Shown here piece after piece: positions 5,387-32,424 of a stretch of 64,000 nucleotides of DNA; position 1 is the stretch's first letter, and every line of letters begins with the position of its first letter. Position numbers and translations under genes: made by a program. Location of the stretch: positions 248,001 through 312,000 of the forward strand of contig JAENZJ010000001.1 of NCBI GenBank assembly GCA_016841325.1, given 5' to 3'. A model generated the notes under the pieces. The model saw only the letters and a program-made list of their open reading frames with translations. It searched no databases and was not told the origin of the DNA. The stretch comes from Thermincola carboxydiphila (GTDB taxonomy: Bacteria > Bacillota > Thermincolia > Thermincolales > UBA2595).

Positions 5387-7240
5387 ATGAAAAAAATTAG
5401 CTACAAGATTCTTGCCGGTTACCTGGTGGTGCTGATTCTCCTGGCAGTAGTTGCATATCTGGGGATCAGTGGTATGCAGAGTGGGCAGCAGGGTTTTACC
5501 GCACTTGTTAATAAACGTCTGGACCTTACCTCCAACATTGAAAGAATGAGATACTACATCACCAGTCAGGGTTACAGTTTCAGGGGATATATGATAACCA
5601 AGGACAGCTCCTGGTATGATAAGTTCATTGAATATGGTGAAAAGGTAGGGTTAGCTGAAGAAAACATCAAAAAAGAGATGACCACAAAGCAGGGGGCCGA
5701 AACGCTGGCCAAGATGGTAGATCTACAGAAACGGTATGAAGATGTCTGTGCACAGGTAAAAACACTGATTGATACAGGCCGTGAAAATGAAGTAACCCCG
5801 TATACAGATGAAGCAGGCAAGATATTTGCCGAACTGGAGACATTGGGAGATGAATTTGTCCAGCTGAATGAACAGGCCAGCCAGGACGGAATTCTTGCTG
5901 AGGTCCGGAATGCGGAAAGGACCCAAATGATAAGTATAGTGGTCTCGGTGTTGGCAGCGCTGTTGAGTATTGGCATCGGTCTGTTCCTGAGTCGGAGTAT
6001 TTCCAGGCCAGTGGTGGCACTGTCCGCTGCCCTTACCAGGGTTTCCGACGGGGACCTTAGTGTGGAGAAAGTCCGGACAACCACCAGGGATGAGGTTGGA
6101 CAGATGACAATGGCTTTCAACACTATGCTGGAAAGCCTGAGGAATATGATTAACCAGATTAGTGCATCCTCGCAGTCGGTGGCGGCAACCAGTGAAGAAC
6201 TGTCATCCAACGGGGAGGAAGCTACCAGGGCAACCCAGCAGGTGGCCAAAGCCATCGAGCAGATTGCTGCCGGAGCAGGTGAGCAGTCAAAGAGTGTCAC
6301 CGAAACCGTCAAGGTGGTGGAACAGGTTTCCCAGGCTATTGAACAGATTGCCTCAGGAGCCCAGGAACAGAGCAAGAATGTAGTAAGTTCAACCGAACTG
6401 GTAAACGGAATGGCCCGGAAAATCGATACCATGGCTGACGGTATGGAAACAGTAAGAGAGGTGGCGGAACAGAGCAAGACCGTTGCTGAAAGCGGCGGTG
6501 AGTCGGTTAAGAAAACCGTTGCCGGGATGTATAAGGTAAAAGATGCGTCATCTGATACCGCACTGAAGATAAGGGAACTGGGAGAACAGTCCCAGAAAAT
6601 CGGTGAAATCATCGAGGTGATTGATGACATCGCCGAACAGACTAACTTACTGGCCTTAAATGCAGCCATAGAGGCAGCCCGTGCCGGTGAACACGGTAAG
6701 GGATTTGCCGTGGTGGCCGACGAGGTGCGCAAGCTGGCAGAGCGGTCCGGTAAAGCTACCAAGGAGATAGCGGAACTTATTACCGGGATCCAGAGAGGAA
6801 CAGCGGCTGCGGTTGAATCCATGGAAATAGGGACCAGAGAAGTTGAGGAAGGGGTAATCCTGGCTCAGGAAGCAGGAAAAGCCCTTGAGGAAATTATGTC
6901 GGGAGTAAAAACCTCCAGTGAACATGTGAACCGGATTATGGACATTATTGATGATATCCTTAAAGGAAGCAAGGAAGTAGCCGAGACAGTTAACAATGTC
7001 GCGGCAATAACAGAAGAGAATACAGCAGCGACAGAGGAGATGGCTGCATCTGCACAGCAGGTGAATTCTGCAATGCAGAGTATTGCCTCAGTATCTGAAG
7101 AAAGTGCGGCAGCAGCAGAAGAGGTCTCGGCCTCAACAGAAGAGCTGAACGCATCTGTGGAAGAGATTTCGGCCTCCTCGGAACAATTGGCCAAAATGGC
7201 CCAGGAACTGCAGCAGATGGTGGCCAATTTCAGGTTATAG
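5387..7240 (+). CDS. methyl-accepting chemotaxis protein 2
   Basis: The 617-residue receptor has the same plan as MCP1: transmembrane segment at about 7-28, an extracellular helical sensor of about 150 residues, a second transmembrane segment at about 184-206, HAMP ([20 protein letters not shown]) and the MCP signalling domain with [19 protein letters not shown]. The sensor and HAMP parts differ clearly from MCP1, whereas the signalling part is identical in sequence over 908 bases. The ATG follows GAGGAGGCG. A cheW gene lies 51 bases downstream. The two receptors probably sense different ligands but feed the same pathway. Confidence 0.95.
6266..7173 (+). repeat. 908-base direct repeat, copy 2 (MCP signalling domain)
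   Basis: This is the partner of 3521-4428. The first difference on the left is in the CAG-GTT / CAG-ATT codons just before 6266, and the first on the right is GCG versus GCC at 4429 / 7174. Recombination between the copies would delete or duplicate about 2.7 kb and create a chimeric receptor. Confidence 0.93.
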
Positions 7241-7971: not shown

Positions 7972-8108
7972 AGTATTGTTCTGAAAACAAAACAGTGCTG
8001 TTTACACAAGTCGCCCCGTAAGTGTTATCAAAAAAAGGTGTAGTGGTGCAGGTACAGGACAAATAGGCAGTAAAATCTGCTAATAAGTATTTGAAGGGGC
8101 AGCGTGGT

Positions 8109-10191: not shown

Positions 10192-11133
10192 ATGTCTTTT
10201 TCTACTGATACCAAAAATGAACTGGCCAGGGTTATGGCACAAAAACTTTGCTGCCAGACAGCGGAACTGGCTGCCCTGGCAAAAATGGACGGACTTGTCC
10301 AGATAAGCGGCAGACACCGGATCTCCCTGCATCTGATTACAGAAAGTGCAGCCGTTGCCCGCAAGGTAATTACATATTTAAAAAACCTCTATGGAGTTCA
10401 GACAGATATACTTATTAAAAAGAAAAACAAACTGAAAAAAAACAATGTCTACCTGGTGCGGATGCCTACTCAGGATGATGTGGTTAAAGTACTCCGTTCC
10501 CTTGGGATGCTTGATGACAATGGCCGGCTGGTTGACGGCATAAAGCCTGACCTGCTGAAAAGGGAATGCTGCCGGAGGGCCTATCTGCGCGGGATATTTC
10601 TTGGCGGCGGTTCTGTCAGCGACCCTGAAGGTGATTATCACCTGGAGATTCTTGTCAGTGACGAAGATTTCAGCCACTTATTATGTGATATTCTGAAACG
10701 GTATGACCTGGCGGCAGGAATCAACAGAAGGAAGAACTGGGATGTGGTTTACCTGAAGGGAAGTGAGGATATTATCAAACTGCTGAACCTGATGGGCGCC
10801 CATGGGGCGTTATTAAACTTTGAAAATGTCAGGATATATAAAGATGTCAGGAATCAGGTCAACCGCCTGGTTAACTGTGAAACGGCAAATCTTAACAAGA
10901 CCGTCAATGCCGCTGTCAGGCAGGTCGAGGATATCAGGCTGATTGACAAGGCAATAGGCCTGGCAAAGCTCCCCCTCAATCTGAGGACAATAGCCGAATA
11001 CCGCCTCACTTATCCTGATATCAGTCTTAAGGAACTGGGAGAGATGATGGAACCCAGGATTGGCAAATCAGGAGTCAACCACCGGATGAGGAGGATCCAG
11101 AGGATTGCGGAAAAGATCAGGGGAGATATGTAA
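10192..11133 (+). CDS. whiA: WhiA sporulation/cell-division DNA-binding protein
   Basis: The 313-residue protein matches WhiA over its length: an N-terminal region beginning [14 protein letters not shown], a LAGLIDADG-homing-endonuclease-like core with [16 protein letters not shown], and a C-terminal helix-turn-helix ([20 protein letters not shown]). WhiA controls sporulation septation in Streptomyces and influences cell division and chromosome segregation in Bacillus. The ATG has GGAGGGCGGAAGG upstream. It normally follows yvcK directly; here it has its own promoter-like sequence and sits 8.6 kb away. Confidence 0.95.
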
Positions 11134-11258: not shown

Positions 11259-12695
11259 ATGCGTATGGGGTTTGGCCTATATCAGGAACAGACACAAAAA
11301 CTTATGATGACCCCTGAACTAAGGCTGGCAATAAAGATACTGCAATTTTCAACTATTGAACTTACAGAATATATTGAAAATGAGCTGGTGGAGAATCCAC
11401 TGCTGGAAATTGCCGAGTCTGCACCGGATACAGGTAATTCCGATGATTCTGCGGCTGGGACCGAACATGAGGAATCCGGACAACAGGATTTGACTGATGA
11501 AATGGAAAAGGTAGATATTGACTGGGACCAGTATTTTGATGACGGTACCGGCTACCGGAATGACTTCGCTGTAAACCGCCAGGAAGAAACCCCGCGTTAT
11601 GAAAACTTTATCGCCGAAGTTCCCACCCTTCAGGAGTATTTAATGTTTCAACTGGCCCTTACAAGGATGACCGATCAGGAAAAGTCAGTGGGAGAGTTTT
11701 TTATCGGGAACATTGATGACAATGGCTATTTGCACTGTTCCCCTGAGGAGGCTGCAGTTAAATGTAATGTTCCTGTGGAAACTGCAGAAGATGTCCTGGG
11801 CATAATCCAGGGTATGGAGCCCCCCGGAGTAGGCGCCAGGGACCTCAGGGAGTGTTTGCTGATACAGTACGCGCAGCTTGAAGTTAAGAATGAGATGTTG
11901 AAAGAAATCATTTGTGACTACCTGCAGGAAATTGCTGCCGGGAAGGTTATGAAAGTTGCCAAAAAGCTGGGTGTTCAGCTCTATGAGATCCAGGATGCAA
12001 TGGACCTCCTGAAAATGCTGGAACCTAAGCCGGGCAGGAGATTTTCACCTACCGACAGCACCCGTTACATTGTTCCTGATGTTGTTGTGGAAAAGGTGGA
12101 CGGTGAATATATTATCCTGGTCAATGATGTCTCCACTCCACGCCTTACAGTTAATAATGCCTATAAGGAAATTGTCAGGGGAAGCAATGCCGACCAGGAA
12201 AGCCGCAGGTATATTGAAGAAAAGCTTAATTCTGCCGTCTGGCTGATGAAAAGCATTGAGCAGCGCCGGGAGACCCTCTATAAGGTTTCCCGCTGTATCG
12301 TTGATTTTCAGAAGGATTTTTTTGACAAGGGCATAAAACACCTGAAAAGTATGAACCTGAGAGATGTGGCCCAAATATTGGGGATACATGAATCCACAGT
12401 TAGCAGGGCTGCCGCCGGCAAGTATATGCAAACTCCCCGGGGGCTGTTTGAAATGAAGTTTTTCTTTTCCAGCGGGGTCTCCAATATCCATGGTACATCC
12501 ACCTCCGCTGAGGCTGTAAAAAAAATAATCAGGGAACTGGTGGAAGCCGAAGACCCGCATAAGCCCCTGAGTGACCAGAAGATTGCAGAGGACCTCCAGG
12601 CCAAGGGGGTCAATATCTCCAGGCGAACTGTAGCCAAATACAGGGATGAAATCGGTATCCTGCCTACCTCCAAGAGGAGACGGTACTGCAAATAG
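11259..12695 (+). CDS. rpoN: RNA polymerase sigma-54 factor
   Basis: The protein has about 478 residues. It has the glutamine-containing activator-interacting region I (LYQEQTQKLMMTPELRLAIK), an acidic region II, the core-binding region and the C-terminal DNA-binding part with a helix-turn-helix (VAQILGIHESTVSRA) and the RpoN box (SRRTVAKYRDEIGI). Sigma-54 directs transcription from -24/-12 promoters with enhancer-binding activators. ATG at 11259 with GGGGAG 8 bases upstream is chosen over the in-frame GTG at 11250, whose ribosome binding site would be adjacent to it. No enhancer-binding activator is encoded in the window. Confidence 0.94.
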   Translation: MRMGFGLYQEQTQKLMMTPELRLAIKILQFSTIELTEYIENELVENPLLEIAESAPDTGNSDDSAAGTEHEESGQQDLTDEMEKVDIDWDQYFDDGTGYRNDFAVNRQEETPRYENFIAEVPTLQEYLMFQLALTRMTDQEKSVGEFFIGNIDDNGYLHCSPEEAAVKCNVPVETAEDVLGIIQGMEPPGVGARDLRECLLIQYAQLEVKNEMLKEIICDYLQEIAAGKVMKVAKKLGVQLYEIQDAMDLLKMLEPKPGRRFSPTDSTRYIVPDVVVEKVDGEYIILVNDVSTPRLTVNNAYKEIVRGSNADQESRRYIEEKLNSAVWLMKSIEQRRETLYKVSRCIVDFQKDFFDKGIKHLKSMNLRDVAQILGIHESTVSRAAAGKYMQTPRGLFEMKFFFSSGVSNIHGTSTSAEAVKKIIRELVEAEDPHKPLSDQKIAEDLQAKGVNISRRTVAKYRDEIGILPTSKRRRYCK

Positions 12696-12913
12696 AACAG
12701 GCTTGCCATATACCGGGCGGGTCTGCAAATTAACGAACAGTTTTGCAATCAGTAGAATAGGTTTGTGATACATTGAAATAATAATGCTGAAACGGGATAT
12801 CAGAGGTTAAGGAAATTTTGGAAGAAAATTTTGGGGCGGTAAAAGGACTTTTGTATAAAAATGTAGAATTATATACCCGTTGAGGAAAAAAATGTTCTTC
12901 TTTTTTTGCTTGC

Positions 12914-28320: not shown

Positions 28321-28671
28321 GGGGGTGTACTGGTTTCGACGGGGGAAGAATGAGCATAGGCAGCGAGCCGGGGTCCCACAAGCCCGTTAACACGGTGGAA
28401 AACATTTAAACGCTAATAACGATTACGCTTTAGCTGCTTAATTGCAGCCTAACCTCTCTCTCTCTGTGCTCTGGGTGAGGGAGATGAGGTCATTTACCAG
28501 AGCTGGCTGATCCCCAATTCTCGGAGGTGTGAGGCGAGATTTATCGAGATAGTGACCTGACAGCTTGTCGGTAGGCGGTCAGTGAGCGAAATTTAAATTA
28601 CCTGACTGCGCTCGGAGAAGCTTATGTGGGTTCTCTTCCGGACAGGGGTTCGATTCCCCTCACCTCCACCA
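28321..28671 (+). ncRNA. ssrA: transfer-messenger RNA
   Basis: The 351-base RNA starts GGGGGTG, which pairs with CACCTCC at 28661-28667 to form the acceptor stem, followed by A and the encoded CCA. The T arm is AGGGG, TTCGATT, CCCCT. The tag reading frame at 28412-28441 encodes ANNDYALAA and ends with TAA; the tag-stop hairpin GCTGC / GCAGC follows. tmRNA rescues stalled ribosomes with SmpB, encoded just upstream. A terminator follows. Its segment from 28424 to the end recurs downstream. Confidence 0.96.
28424..28450 (+). repeat. ssrA core repeat, copy 1 (in tmRNA tag region)
   Basis: A 27-base segment covering the last tag codons, the stop codon and its hairpin is found again exactly at 30335-30361 and 32398-32424. 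Its centre is a near-symmetric inverted repeat (TTAGCTGC against GCAGCCTAA), as expected for an integrase crossover site. It is likely an attachment-site core. Confidence 0.8.
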
Positions 28672-28683
28672 TAACCGTAAATT

Positions 28684-28713
28684 AAACTCAGGCCATTACA
28701 GCCTGAGTTTTTT
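28684..28713 (+). terminator. rho-independent terminator of ssrA
   Basis: AAACTCAGGC at 28684-28693 pairs with GCCTGAGTTT at 28701-28710, followed by more T residues. The same type of terminator follows the partial ssrA copy at 30577. Confidence 0.92.
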
Positions 28714-28785
28714 ATTTTTGATTAGTTACACAATTTGTAATTTCACATATATTAGATTACCAACTCAAATAGAGGAGGAAATAAA

Positions 28786-30333
28786 ATGTCGCTTGAAAAG
28801 TATGTAGACCCACTCCCTCTTCCTGAAGTAATTGAGCCTGTTGGCCAAGTTAACGGAGTCGATTTATACAAGGTGGTAATGAAACAGGTCGAACAAAAGC
28901 TTCACAGGGATTTGCCGAAAACCACGGTCTGGGGGTATAATGGTGTTTTTCCGGGCCCTACCTTTGAAGCTAGAACAAATGTACCCATTAAGGTAAAATG
29001 GATCAATGACCTTCCGGTGGATAACCACTTACTGCCGGTGGATAAAACGGTGCATGGAGCCGAACCCCCTAACCCGGAAGTTAGGACTGTAGTTCACCTT
29101 CACGGAGGAAACAATCCCATGGATAGCGACGGGTACCCGGAGGCGTGGTTTACCAACAGCTTTAAACAAGTGGGACCTTTCTTTACTGCAAAGATATACA
29201 ATTACCCTCATATCCAACCTGCCGCTACCCTTTGGTATCATGACCATGCCATTGGAATTACACGTCTAAACGTCTATGCAGGGCTGGCGGGTTTTTATCT
29301 TCTTAGGGATGAGTGTGAAGATCAACTTAATTTACCAAGAGGAAGGTACGAAGTTCCACTTGTAATTCAAGATAGATCATTTAATGAGGATGGTTCATTT
29401 TTTTATCCCTCTCAACCGGATGAACCTGTGCCTGTATTTCCCTCCATAGTACCTGAATTTTTTGGTGAAACCATCCTGGTGAACGGTAAAGTTTGGCCAT
29501 TCCTTGAGGTGGAGCCACGGAAGTATAGATTCAGGTTGTTAAACGGTTCCAACTCTCGTTTCTATAGAATGAGATTCAGCTCAGGACAACCATTTATTCA
29601 GATTGGAACAGATGTGGGATTCCTTGAGAAGCCAGTTATAACGAATGAATTAATCCTTGGACCGGGCGAACGGGCTGATGTCATTATTAATTTCACGGAT
29701 TTTGCCGGACAGCATATCGTACTAACTAACGATGCCCCGTCTCCGTTCCCGGACGGAGATCCTGTAGAACCAAACACAACAGGCCAGATTATACAATTTC
29801 GTGTAGTCTTGCCGCTGTCAGGTACTGACACGAGTTCCATACCTACGAAGCTGTGTGCTTTCGAAAAACTGACTGAGGGAGATGCTACAAGACGCCGGAA
29901 TCAGCCGCTCATTGAAGGTGAGGATGAGTTTGGAAGACTCATATTGCTTCTTGAAGGATTAAGGTGGTCTGATTCGGTTACTGATAAGCCTGAGTTGGGT
30001 GATGTGGAAATCTGGAATCTAATTAATGCTACTCCCGATACTCATCCAATTCATCTGCATCTGGTACGGTTCCAAATTCTAGACCGTCGGCCTTTTGATG
30101 TGGAACATTATCTTGCAACTCGGGAAATTGTCTATACAGGTCCACCTGTTACTCCAGATCCGAACGAAAGAGGCCCTAAAGATACCGTAAGGGCAAATCC
30201 TGGAGAAGTGACACGAATTATTACTCGCTTTGAGGATTTTACCGGATTGTATCCATGGCACTGTCATATCCTTGAACATGAGGACCATGAGATGATGCGC
30301 CCTTATGAGGTCGTGGAAGAAATGGAAGAATAG
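28786..30333 (+). CDS. cotA: CotA-like multicopper oxidase (spore-coat laccase/bilirubin oxidase type)
   Basis: The 515-residue protein has three cupredoxin domains without a signal peptide. All four copper-binding motifs are present: VHLHGG, WYHDHA, THPIHLHL and the T1 motif YPWHCHILEHEDHEMM with its axial Met. It begins and ends very much like Bacillus CotA (LHRDLPKTTVWGYNG and DGYPEAWF are shared features). CotA oxidises phenolics and bilirubin with O2 and makes brown spore pigment. The ATG follows AGAGGAGGAAA. It stands alone between ssrA and a partial ssrA copy that begins two bases after its stop, which suggests it was brought in by insertion at ssrA. Confidence 0.93.
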   Translation: MSLEKYVDPLPLPEVIEPVGQVNGVDLYKVVMKQVEQKLHRDLPKTTVWGYNGVFPGPTFEARTNVPIKVKWINDLPVDNHLLPVDKTVHGAEPPNPEVRTVVHLHGGNNPMDSDGYPEAWFTNSFKQVGPFFTAKIYNYPHIQPAATLWYHDHAIGITRLNVYAGLAGFYLLRDECEDQLNLPRGRYEVPLVIQDRSFNEDGSFFYPSQPDEPVPVFPSIVPEFFGETILVNGKVWPFLEVEPRKYRFRLLNGSNSRFYRMRFSSGQPFIQIGTDVGFLEKPVITNELILGPGERADVIINFTDFAGQHIVLTNDAPSPFPDGDPVEPNTTGQIIQFRVVLPLSGTDTSSIPTKLCAFEKLTEGDATRRRNQPLIEGEDEFGRLILLLEGLRWSDSVTDKPELGDVEIWNLINATPDTHPIHLHLVRFQILDRRPFDVEHYLATREIVYTGPPVTPDPNERGPKDTVRANPGEVTRIITRFEDFTGLYPWHCHILEHEDHEMMRPYEVVEEMEE

Positions 30334-30334
30334 A

Positions 30335-30570
30335 TACGCTTTAGCTGCTTAATTGCAGCCTAACCTCTCTTTCTCTGTGCTCTGGGTGAGATTTACCAGA
30401 GCCGGCTGATCCCCAATTCTCGGAGGTGTGAGGCGAGATTTATCGAGATAGTGACATGACAGCCTGTCGGTAGGCGGTTGGTGAGCGAAGCTTAAATTAC
30501 CTGACTGCGCTCGGAGAAGCTTATGTGGGTTCTCTTCCGGACGCGGGTTCGATTCCCGCCACCTCTACCA
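30335..30570 (+). pseudogene. second ssrA 3' half (tag end to CCA), displaced copy
   Basis: From the core at 30335 this segment follows the tmRNA gene to its CCA at 30568-30570, with one 12-base deletion (relative to about 28485) and scattered substitutions. There is no 5' half, so it cannot make a full tmRNA alone. Its T stem is GCGGG / CCCGC instead of AGGGG / CCCCT, so both strands changed together. It is best explained as the host or element 3' end displaced by integration into ssrA. Production of a small stable RNA is possible but not shown. Confidence 0.88.
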
Positions 30571-30576
30571 TGACCG

Positions 30577-30605
30577 TAAAACTCAGGCTAAGTTAGCCTG
30601 AGTTT
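30577..30605 (+). terminator. rho-independent terminator after the partial ssrA copy
   Basis: AAACTCAGGCTAA pairs with TTAGCCTGAGTTT across a two-base loop and runs into further T residues. It resembles the genuine ssrA terminator and supports the idea that a whole 3' end was moved. On the other strand it may also terminate the FAD-oxidoreductase gene. Confidence 0.88.
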
Positions 30606-30613
30606 TTGTCTTT

Positions 30614-31771
30614 CTAAGAGTAGGGGTTCGACGGGGGTGGAATAATCCTCTTACGTACCATTCTGGAGTTTTTATTCAGTGCGGCTCTGATTTTAACTTC
30701 TGGTTTTAAGAGATAACTTGCCGTTTTAAACGGGTTTATCTTTTGATTATTAAATATATAGTTAGCTAATTTTGTATTAAATAGGGAGACCAATAAATCT
30801 AACTTGCGGTTATCTAATTGTTCCATGAAGCGACGGATAACCAGCGAATTATTATAGCTTTCTTGTAAATGTTTGACCAGTTCGGCGTAATTTCCTTTAC
30901 CAACCAAATCAAAGGCCGCATAGATCCCTGTCAACATTGCAGGCAACTGCCCAAACCCAAAGGCCGGCATAATGGCACCGAAACAATTGCCCACGAAAAA
31001 GGTGTTTCCTAAACGCGGGTATTGACATTGACCAATTATGTACCTGGTAATTTCAAAGTTATCGGTGACCTTAAGGTTTTGATTTAAGTTAGCACATACT
31101 CTATCATAAAAGTTACCCCAAATAGCGTTAATGTCTTTTGACTGGTTCTCGGGATAATCTGGATAACCAATTGTGATTGAAGCTTCCCGTTCTGAGAAGG
31201 GCATTAAATAGCCGTATCCTTTCGGGGAAAGGTTATTGTCCAACCAAATTGCCGTGCTAAAACGGTCGAATTTACCTTCCACAGTAGCACCTTTGAGTGT
31301 TACTGTTAAGTCTACTTTAAAGTTCTGGATTTTGGAAGCATAAGCAGCGTCACCTGTGGCCAATATTACATGGGTAAAATCTTGTAATATTTGTTCATAT
31401 GTGACATTTGAGTTAAAGATGATATTTGTTTTGACCTGTTTGAAAAGTTGGTTCTCAATAGACTGAGAATGTCTGCCCCTTGAGTTAAGAAAACCTAAAT
31501 AACCACTCAAAGTAGCCACTTTGTTTTCCGAGTAAAAAGTAAGATTTTTAATGTTGCTTAACGGTTGTAAGAAGATACCATATTTCTCGGCAAGAAAACT
31601 GTAACTGTCATTTATTGGCCTATCCAATATAGGGATAAGAGCTTCACCATTGATAAACCGGTCTCCCACCTGGTTCCTATTTTCAAATATTGTTGGTGTA
31701 ATTCCATGTTTTTCGAGTGTAATTGCGCAGGCTAAACCGGAAAGTCCCGCTCCCATGATTGCAACATTCAA
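30614..31771 (-). CDS. FAD-dependent oxidoreductase (geranylgeranyl-reductase-like)
   Basis: The 385-residue protein starts with a dinucleotide-binding motif (MNVAIMGAGLSGLACAITLE, GxGxxG at residues 7-12), has a second FAD motif (HVILATGDAAYAS) and GYLMPFSEREASI, and a third FAD contact FVGNCFGAIMPAFGFG. This pattern suits the group of FAD monooxygenases and geranylgeranyl/lycopene-type reductases. The substrate is unknown. It is co-oriented with the membrane protein gene 20 bases upstream and lies between two ssrA-derived repeats. Its sequence is visibly richer in A and T than the neighbouring host genes. Confidence 0.75.
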   Translation of the reverse strand: MNVAIMGAGLSGLACAITLEKHGITPTIFENRNQVGDRFINGEALIPILDRPINDSYSFLAEKYGIFLQPLSNIKNLTFYSENKVATLSGYLGFLNSRGRHSQSIENQLFKQVKTNIIFNSNVTYEQILQDFTHVILATGDAAYASKIQNFKVDLTVTLKGATVEGKFDRFSTAIWLDNNLSPKGYGYLMPFSEREASITIGYPDYPENQSKDINAIWGNFYDRVCANLNQNLKVTDNFEITRYIIGQCQYPRLGNTFFVGNCFGAIMPAFGFGQLPAMLTGIYAAFDLVGKGNYAELVKHLQESYNNSLVIRRFMEQLDNRKLDLLVSLFNTKLANYIFNNQKINPFKTASYLLKPEVKIRAALNKNSRMVRKRIIPPPSNPYS

Positions 31772-31791
31772 ATCCGTCTCCTCCTTGATCT

Positions 31792-32268
31792 TCAGATTAA
31801 CCTGTTTATTTCGATTTTTTCTATTTTAAGATATACCAATGCAGCAGTAGTGAACCACACCAGAAATATAACAGGCATTATATATTTACCAATCCCTATG
31901 TAGTCGAATAAACCGAATGCCTGTAAGACTATCCCGACCGAATAGCTAAGACCTGTCCAGACAAGCAGATACAAGGCGAGGAATAATTTTCTGACCGGCA
32001 TTAGGTAGAAAAAAATAGAAAACGCAAACATCCAAGTAACAGGAGTCCAAAACGAAAACACATCAAATATGTTAAAGTAACCCATGTTTTTATATCGAGT
32101 CAGGTGAAAAATTTTAGAGAATATTGGCGATAAAATAGCATCACCTAATCCACCTAAAAAAATAGCATAAAGCAGGTATTTTCTGTATAACCTTTTGGGG
32201 ATTACAGCCAGAGCCGCAGTTCCCGTCATTACTGCAAATACAAAAAAGATAAGATATTTTCCGAACAT
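31792..32268 (-). CDS. small integral membrane protein, unknown family
   Basis: The protein has about 158 residues with five hydrophobic segments, starting MFGKYLIFFVFAVMTGTAAL and ending in a short charged tail (KIEKIEINRLI). The ATG at 32268 has AAGGAGAA six bases upstream; a longer frame to 32298 has no better site. I do not recognise the family. It is the first gene of a two-gene unit with the FAD-dependent oxidoreductase, which suggests a shared lipid- or quinone-related role, but that is only an inference. Confidence 0.7.
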   Translation of the reverse strand: MFGKYLIFFVFAVMTGTAALAVIPKRLYRKYLLYAIFLGGLGDAILSPIFSKIFHLTRYKNMGYFNIFDVFSFWTPVTWMFAFSIFFYLMPVRKLFLALYLLVWTGLSYSVGIVLQAFGLFDYIGIGKYIMPVIFLVWFTTAALVYLKIEKIEINRLI

Positions 32269-32397
32269 TGAGATTCTCCTTGTGGTACTGCAAATCACAT
32301 ATACTAAATATTAATATGTAAATTGGGTCTCCTTTTATGGGTAGTTATGCTTTTAGGATTTCCAGTGCGAATACTTGATATACAAATTAGCAATGAC

Positions 32398-32424
32398 TAC
32401 GCTTTAGCTGCTTAATTGCAGCCT
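32398..32424 (+). repeat. ssrA core repeat, copy 3
   Basis: The 27 bases are identical to 28424-28450 and 30335-30361. The bases just before it read AAT GAC TAC in the tag frame, similar in meaning but not in sequence to the AAC GAT TAC of the intact tag. After the core the sequence departs completely from ssrA. It fits an attachment site at the far end of an element. Confidence 0.8.

Follow-up and report, generated by a model that had tools for sequence, protein, structure and literature searches.

The laccase gene beside ssrA in Thermincola carboxydiphila arrived as a 1911-bp unit, and ssrA was rebuilt in the process. An older unit lies distal to it, so that two nested units follow ssrA, of which the one nearest ssrA is the youngest, and a like anatomy is found in relatives. 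On this and the further evidence below, we consider it fairly probable that ssrA is an accretion locus, at which small mobile units were inserted serially and then trimmed.

Within the window (the whole stretch of 64,000 nucleotides that was analysed), ssrA lies just downstream of smpB and is complete (Rfam 198 bits; encoded tag ANNDYALAA). The 27-base core from the tag region described in the initial annotation (TACGCTTTAGCTGCTTAATTGCAGCCT) was confirmed as an exact match at 28424, 30335 and 32398; none is expected by chance (100 shuffles with up to three mismatches allowed), which rules out a chance repeat as the origin of the copies, and a slightly shorter degenerate form of the core matched the same three sites only in the 3.4-Mb genome. 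The three copies nevertheless differ in extent: copy 2 is larger than the core, extending from the tag through the 3' end and terminator (ssrA 104-351, 90% identity, with a 12-nt deletion, followed by a homologous terminator), while copy 3 is only a 33-base scrap (ssrA 98-130, 94% identity), in whose upstream bases N-D-Y-A-L-A-A-stop is still readable with two synonymous changes. The strongest two terminators of the region are the ssrA terminators. Far upstream in the window, a c-di-GMP-I riboswitch is present at 2247-2345.

Table 1. Features of the ssrA locus in the window (positions of the whole stretch).
Feature	Position	Strand	Evidence or remark
ssrA, intact, chimeric	28321..28671	+	5' part 28321-28423 resident; 3' half probably from the laccase unit
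Tag/helix-5 core, 27 bp, copy 1	28424..28450	+	shuffle test
Inserted unit, 1911 bp: tag core, ssrA 3' half, terminator, laccase	28424..30334	+	absent from G002; flanks join seamlessly
Terminator of regenerated ssrA	28684..28712	+	homologous to terminator at 30578
Cargo 1: multicopper oxidase (laccase), 515 aa, intact	28786..30333	+	PF07731, PF07732, PF00394
Old ssrA 3' half, displaced, with terminator	30335..30607	+	ssrA 104-351, 12-nt deletion
Cargo 2a: FAD/NAD(P)-binding oxidoreductase	30614..31771	-	weak geranylgeranyl-reductase-like match; homologous DNA directly after ssrA in G002
Possible ssrA 5'-end vestige, GGGTTCGACGGGGGTGGAAT against ssrA 12-31	30624..30643	+	85%; also in G002
Cargo 2b: 168-aa protein, apparent membrane protein	31792..32298	-	no family match
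Displaced ssrA copy, lone remnant (ssrA 98-130)	32392..32424	+	closes older unit

The 1911-bp unit consists, in order, of the core, an ssrA 3' half, a terminator, a 73-base leader and the laccase, whose copper-binding motifs (HLHGG, WYHDHA, HPIHLHL and HCHILEHEDHEMM) are present and whose stop codon (30333) is one base from copy 2 (30335), not two as first reported. Alignment with a relative of the same genus (G002) revealed the empty site: its ssrA is undivided and runs into the sequence that here follows copy 2, it lacks the laccase, and it aligns with window 30335-31703 (copy 2, terminator and oxidoreductase DNA) at 92.6% over 1384 columns. Moreover, the flanks joined after removal of 28424-30334 align seamlessly with the ssrA of G002 (89.7% over 544 columns). 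The marks of a genomic island found here are i) an uninterrupted site in a relative, for the laccase unit, and ii) an intact target (28321-28671) together with displaced target fragments (30335-30607 and 32392-32424). ssrA was regenerated because the laccase unit brought a new ssrA 3' half and terminator; the T-arm alleles of copy 1 (as in G002) and copy 2 (as in G001) differ, in keeping with an exchange of the 3' half.

The insertion into ssrA proposed by the initial annotation is thus supported by the joined-flank match and by the repeated pattern in relatives. Neither outcome that it had named as contrary (the same gene order without core repeats, or an ancestral duplication of ssrA alone) was seen; instead, a relative shares the downstream gene and lacks both the laccase and the repeat. 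An assembly artefact, or a tandem duplication of ssrA alone, would fit the similarity of the copies, but its probability is close to negligible: the copies are distinguished by substitutions, the 12-nt deletion and their terminators, the array lies in the interior of a 392-kb contig, and the laccase between the copies and the undivided site of G002 rule out plain ssrA duplication. Of the cargo, for which a foreign gene style was also claimed, only the oxidoreductase (38.6% GC) and the membrane protein (35.6%) are clearly low in GC; the claim is weak for the laccase, because at 45.1% GC in a 46.5% window it is not compositionally odd. A mobile laccase cassette elsewhere was considered and rejected, as the sole close homolog in the class (76% identical, in G009) occupies an ordinary locus with no ssrA piece. 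That genome also has a second complete tmRNA-like gene (C4:30153-30481), ~72% identical to its main ssrA.

The oxidoreductase, the membrane-protein gene and the lone core form the older unit, closed by the distal core; it is older because the oxidoreductase was already beside ssrA in the ancestor of the source genome (G000) and G002. The earlier suggestion of two nested units with very small cargo and no integrase gains support from the empty site and from the pattern in relatives. The 20-base 5'-end vestige at 30624 (p ~0.0025, uncorrected for the 15 tests made) is probably genuine, but is an isolated case: a 5' vestige after every terminator was rejected, since only the case in the window and G002 stands out and the others are at or near background.

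The near-symmetric repeat around the tag stop codon, previously read as a crossover site, is instead conserved tmRNA structure. It corresponds to the helix-5 hairpin, both arms of which are changed in compensation in G001-G003 (GCAGC-TTAATT-GCTGC), and the palindrome is therefore no evidence of a crossover or recombinase site.

Fragment arrays are also present in relatives. In a MAG named Thermincola ferriacetica (G005), at least ten ssrA fragments are spread among unrelated genes in the 18 kb after ssrA, the cargo including a LAGLIDADG endonuclease, an acyl-CoA ligase, GAF-GGDEF and histidine-kinase proteins, an SLH protein, three DUF6789 copies and others. The module of minus-strand DUF6789 plus tag core occurs three times (C60 6005-6565, 20777-21206 and 21671-22363; L046/L034) at ~90-94% identity; the first DUF6789 copy, at 6005, is frameshifted and truncated and has a ragged left end. 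G003 has one further ssrA fragment, behind a kinase-like gene, and two more are found around the YggT and RluD genes of G002. The single fragment of G004 follows a three-gene HTH-M78-PIN module that ends one base before it, and a module of this type lies directly downstream of ssrA in G001 (M78 peptidase ~32% identical over the stretch compared). Two further observations were made in these genomes: degenerate, non-coding internal repeats just before an ssrA fragment in G005 (C60 ~12290-12710), where no gene was found, and an OLE RNA with a strong Rfam match in G004 (L048 9250-9878).

Outside the family, a zeta-toxin-like gene of G375 (L070, C1:198000-212000) ends directly at an ssrA 3' fragment (12735-12819), and a second fragment (8042-8107) has a Doc-like pair beside it; the anatomy is as in Thermincolaceae, but with a 3'-end attachment site. 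In G177 (L069, C22, reverse complement 10445-10930), an intronless ssrA is separated by TRAP transporter genes from a displaced ssrA piece, which starts near helix 5 and has an intron in its T loop.

The junctions show regularities. Each of the ten plus-strand cargo genes has its stop codon 1-33 bp short of an ssrA fragment, the distance being 11 bp or less for eight of them (for two G005 genes it varies with the position chosen as the start of the degraded fragment), and most of the fragments behind them retain the ssrA 3' end and terminator. For minus-strand cargo, the start codon is ~70-125 bp from the fragment, which is a bare core in three cases. With repeated copies of one module counted once, seven of 13 fragments start at ssrA 86-108 (tag) and four at 316-332 (T arm), the full range being 54-332; under uniform starts, the probability of the 86-108 cluster is estimated at ~1e-5, or ~1e-4 once the choice of interval is taken into account. 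These patterns are most simply explained if units were inserted at a small number of favoured sites and then lost the DNA that was not required for the cargo or its expression. A template switch from mRNA to tmRNA, for which junctions near stop codon and resume codon might speak, was rejected, as it is at odds with minus-strand cargo, with three-gene cargo and with the spread of starts from 54 to 332.

These rules also bear on a reading without any site-specific recombinase, in which DNA with an ssrA 3' segment and a gene recombined by ordinary homology with the resident ssrA, through a single crossover or with one homologous and one illegitimate end, the tag hairpin being only a favoured break or template-switch point. 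Such random ends explain neither the clusters at 86-108 and 316-332 nor a stop codon within ~10 bp of so many junctions. On the other hand, several derived sites absent from G001-G003 are common to both ssrA copies of the source genome (unresolved within the genus in a tree of ssrA 3' halves), the functional and displaced halves of G005 group together, an internal deletion in G003 has 5-bp microhomology, start positions are spread from 54 to 332, and no recombinase is nearby. We regard this reading as possible, though unlikely. Serial insertion and trimming has weaknesses of its own: the fragment starts do not fall on one base, the G005 halves are close kin (100/99), a result likewise expected from homologous recombination, one DUF6789 copy (at 6005) is ragged, and the Thermincolaceae arrays lack a recombinase or second attachment sequence.

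Indeed, no integrase or resolvase was detected in any Thermincolaceae array searched (including between the copies in the window and in the G003 and G005 arrays), no Thermincolaceae genome has a recombinase next to the core, a check that the initial annotation had proposed, and no second attachment sequence is recognisable in any of the arrays. The four phage-integrase-family genes and one resolvase-family gene of the source genome are all on contigs other than that of ssrA. The core is not carried by any phage or plasmid record: IMG/VR pattern scans and a distant phage search returned phage-borne tmRNA genes, 3'-end pieces and chance matches only, and plasmids, likewise without a matching attachment site, were rejected as its source. 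A Heliobacteria-family relative (G302), on the other hand, has a tyrosine recombinase 230 bp after ssrA, a second one inside the element, as well as an identical displaced fragment that starts internally, at about ssrA 187. A 64%-identical integrase is beside ssrA in Heliophilum (G058, same family), the only ssrA-adjacent relative among the best 30 loci when 400 genomes were scanned with the G302 integrase. From G302 it is clear that elements with a recombinase are able to insert far inside ssrA, but not that such elements are kin of the makers of the window units. G302 is also the exception to the close junctions: in this only element with recombinases still present, ~400 bp separate the last gene from the displaced fragment.

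In integron arrays, most units are single-gene cassettes in which the recombination segment closely follows the stop codon. The units described here are likewise mostly single genes with an ssrA segment just past the stop codon, and it might be supposed that genes travel singly between arrays in circular form, each with a 3' segment derived from ssrA, and are served by a recombinase in trans. Functionally unrelated cargo and the multiple copies of the DUF6789-core module in G005 agree with this. However, unlike in integron arrays, no integrase (IntI) is adjacent to the array, the candidate recombinase genes of the source genome all being away from it; the 3' segments are ordinary homologs of ssrA, among which no attC family was seen; cargo lies on both strands; and the same laccase family is at an ordinary locus in G009. 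We consider such a cassette system highly unlikely. Decidedly unlikely, too, is the proposal that the tag/helix-5 segment serves as a separate attachment site, away from the tRNA-like 3' end, for minimal cassettes that carry the tmRNA 3' half and are moved in trans by a recombinase, which would make the Thermincolaceae arrays integron-like arrays on tmRNA.

The nearest described system is that of the tandem ssrA islands (vcr islands) of Dehalococcoides, which are stacked downstream of ssrA with ssrA repeats at each border, carry accessory metabolism, lack an integration module in 15 of 31 cases, and recombine in the T loop (333/334), with repeats of 20 bp and a pair of Ccr-like serine recombinases as the agent (PMC3146451). 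Stacking at ssrA, ssrA repeats at the borders and some units without a recombinase are common to both. In contrast, many repeats here start in the tag (the border of the laccase unit is ssrA 104) and, terminator included, can have a length of ~250 bp, single-gene units are frequent, no recombinase was found, and the sole resolvase-family gene of the source genome is on another contig. Because they differ in crossover site, repeat length and known serine recombinases, the ssrA arrays are a variant of known islands. As in islands at tRNA and tmRNA genes (Islander, PMC4383910), incoming DNA regenerates the target and a displaced fragment marks the far end; unlike those, the units have no integrase and attachment is internal, not at the 3' end, for many.

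Group I introns also use this locus, at 334/335 in the tmRNA T loop (PMC11915505). They occur in the ssrA of G003 and G005 but are absent from the window, where ssrA is uninterrupted, and they leave the cargo units unexplained. The G005 T-loop intron matches RF00028 with E 1.3e-7, below the curated cut-off. Introns were seen, with a LAGLIDADG gene just downstream in G005, both in the functional T loop and inside displaced fragments (L034 4486-4726 and ~6687-6928; L033 6253-6508 and 7631-7867), and an intron seems to have homed into pseudo-ssrA pieces.

Serial insertion at ssrA is favoured by the empty site in G002, the arrays of relatives, junctions near stop codons, clustered starts, strong ssrA terminators, the recombinases of G302 and G058, and strain-like 3' alleles. 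Small mobile units would have entered ssrA one by one, mostly at the tag/helix-5 segment, each bringing a replacement ssrA 3' half, a terminator and cargo, so that tmRNA function would be preserved and the older 3' half displaced in the downstream direction. The insertions were presumably made by a site-specific recombinase that was later lost, integration genes and spare DNA disappearing alike. Cargo on the ssrA strand would have been trimmed to its stop codons, with the displaced ssrA 3' end kept as a ready-made terminator, a role that the remnants probably still play, and cargo on the opposite strand may have left the bare core only.

An insertion hot spot at ssrA is known; unusual here are the single-gene units, the tag-located borders and the many repeats of the pattern. 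Nearly all known elements at the tmRNA gene reportedly enter ssrA at the 3' end (the Williams survey of 2003 is said to show this), and repeated entry through the tag would add a new sublocation within ssrA. Such entry would leave long displaced ssrA pieces able to serve new genes as terminators. ssrA arrays can mislead tmRNA and gene annotation; as products of serial insertion, they would be an ordered record, nearest being newest, of the capture and trimming of single metabolic and signalling genes.
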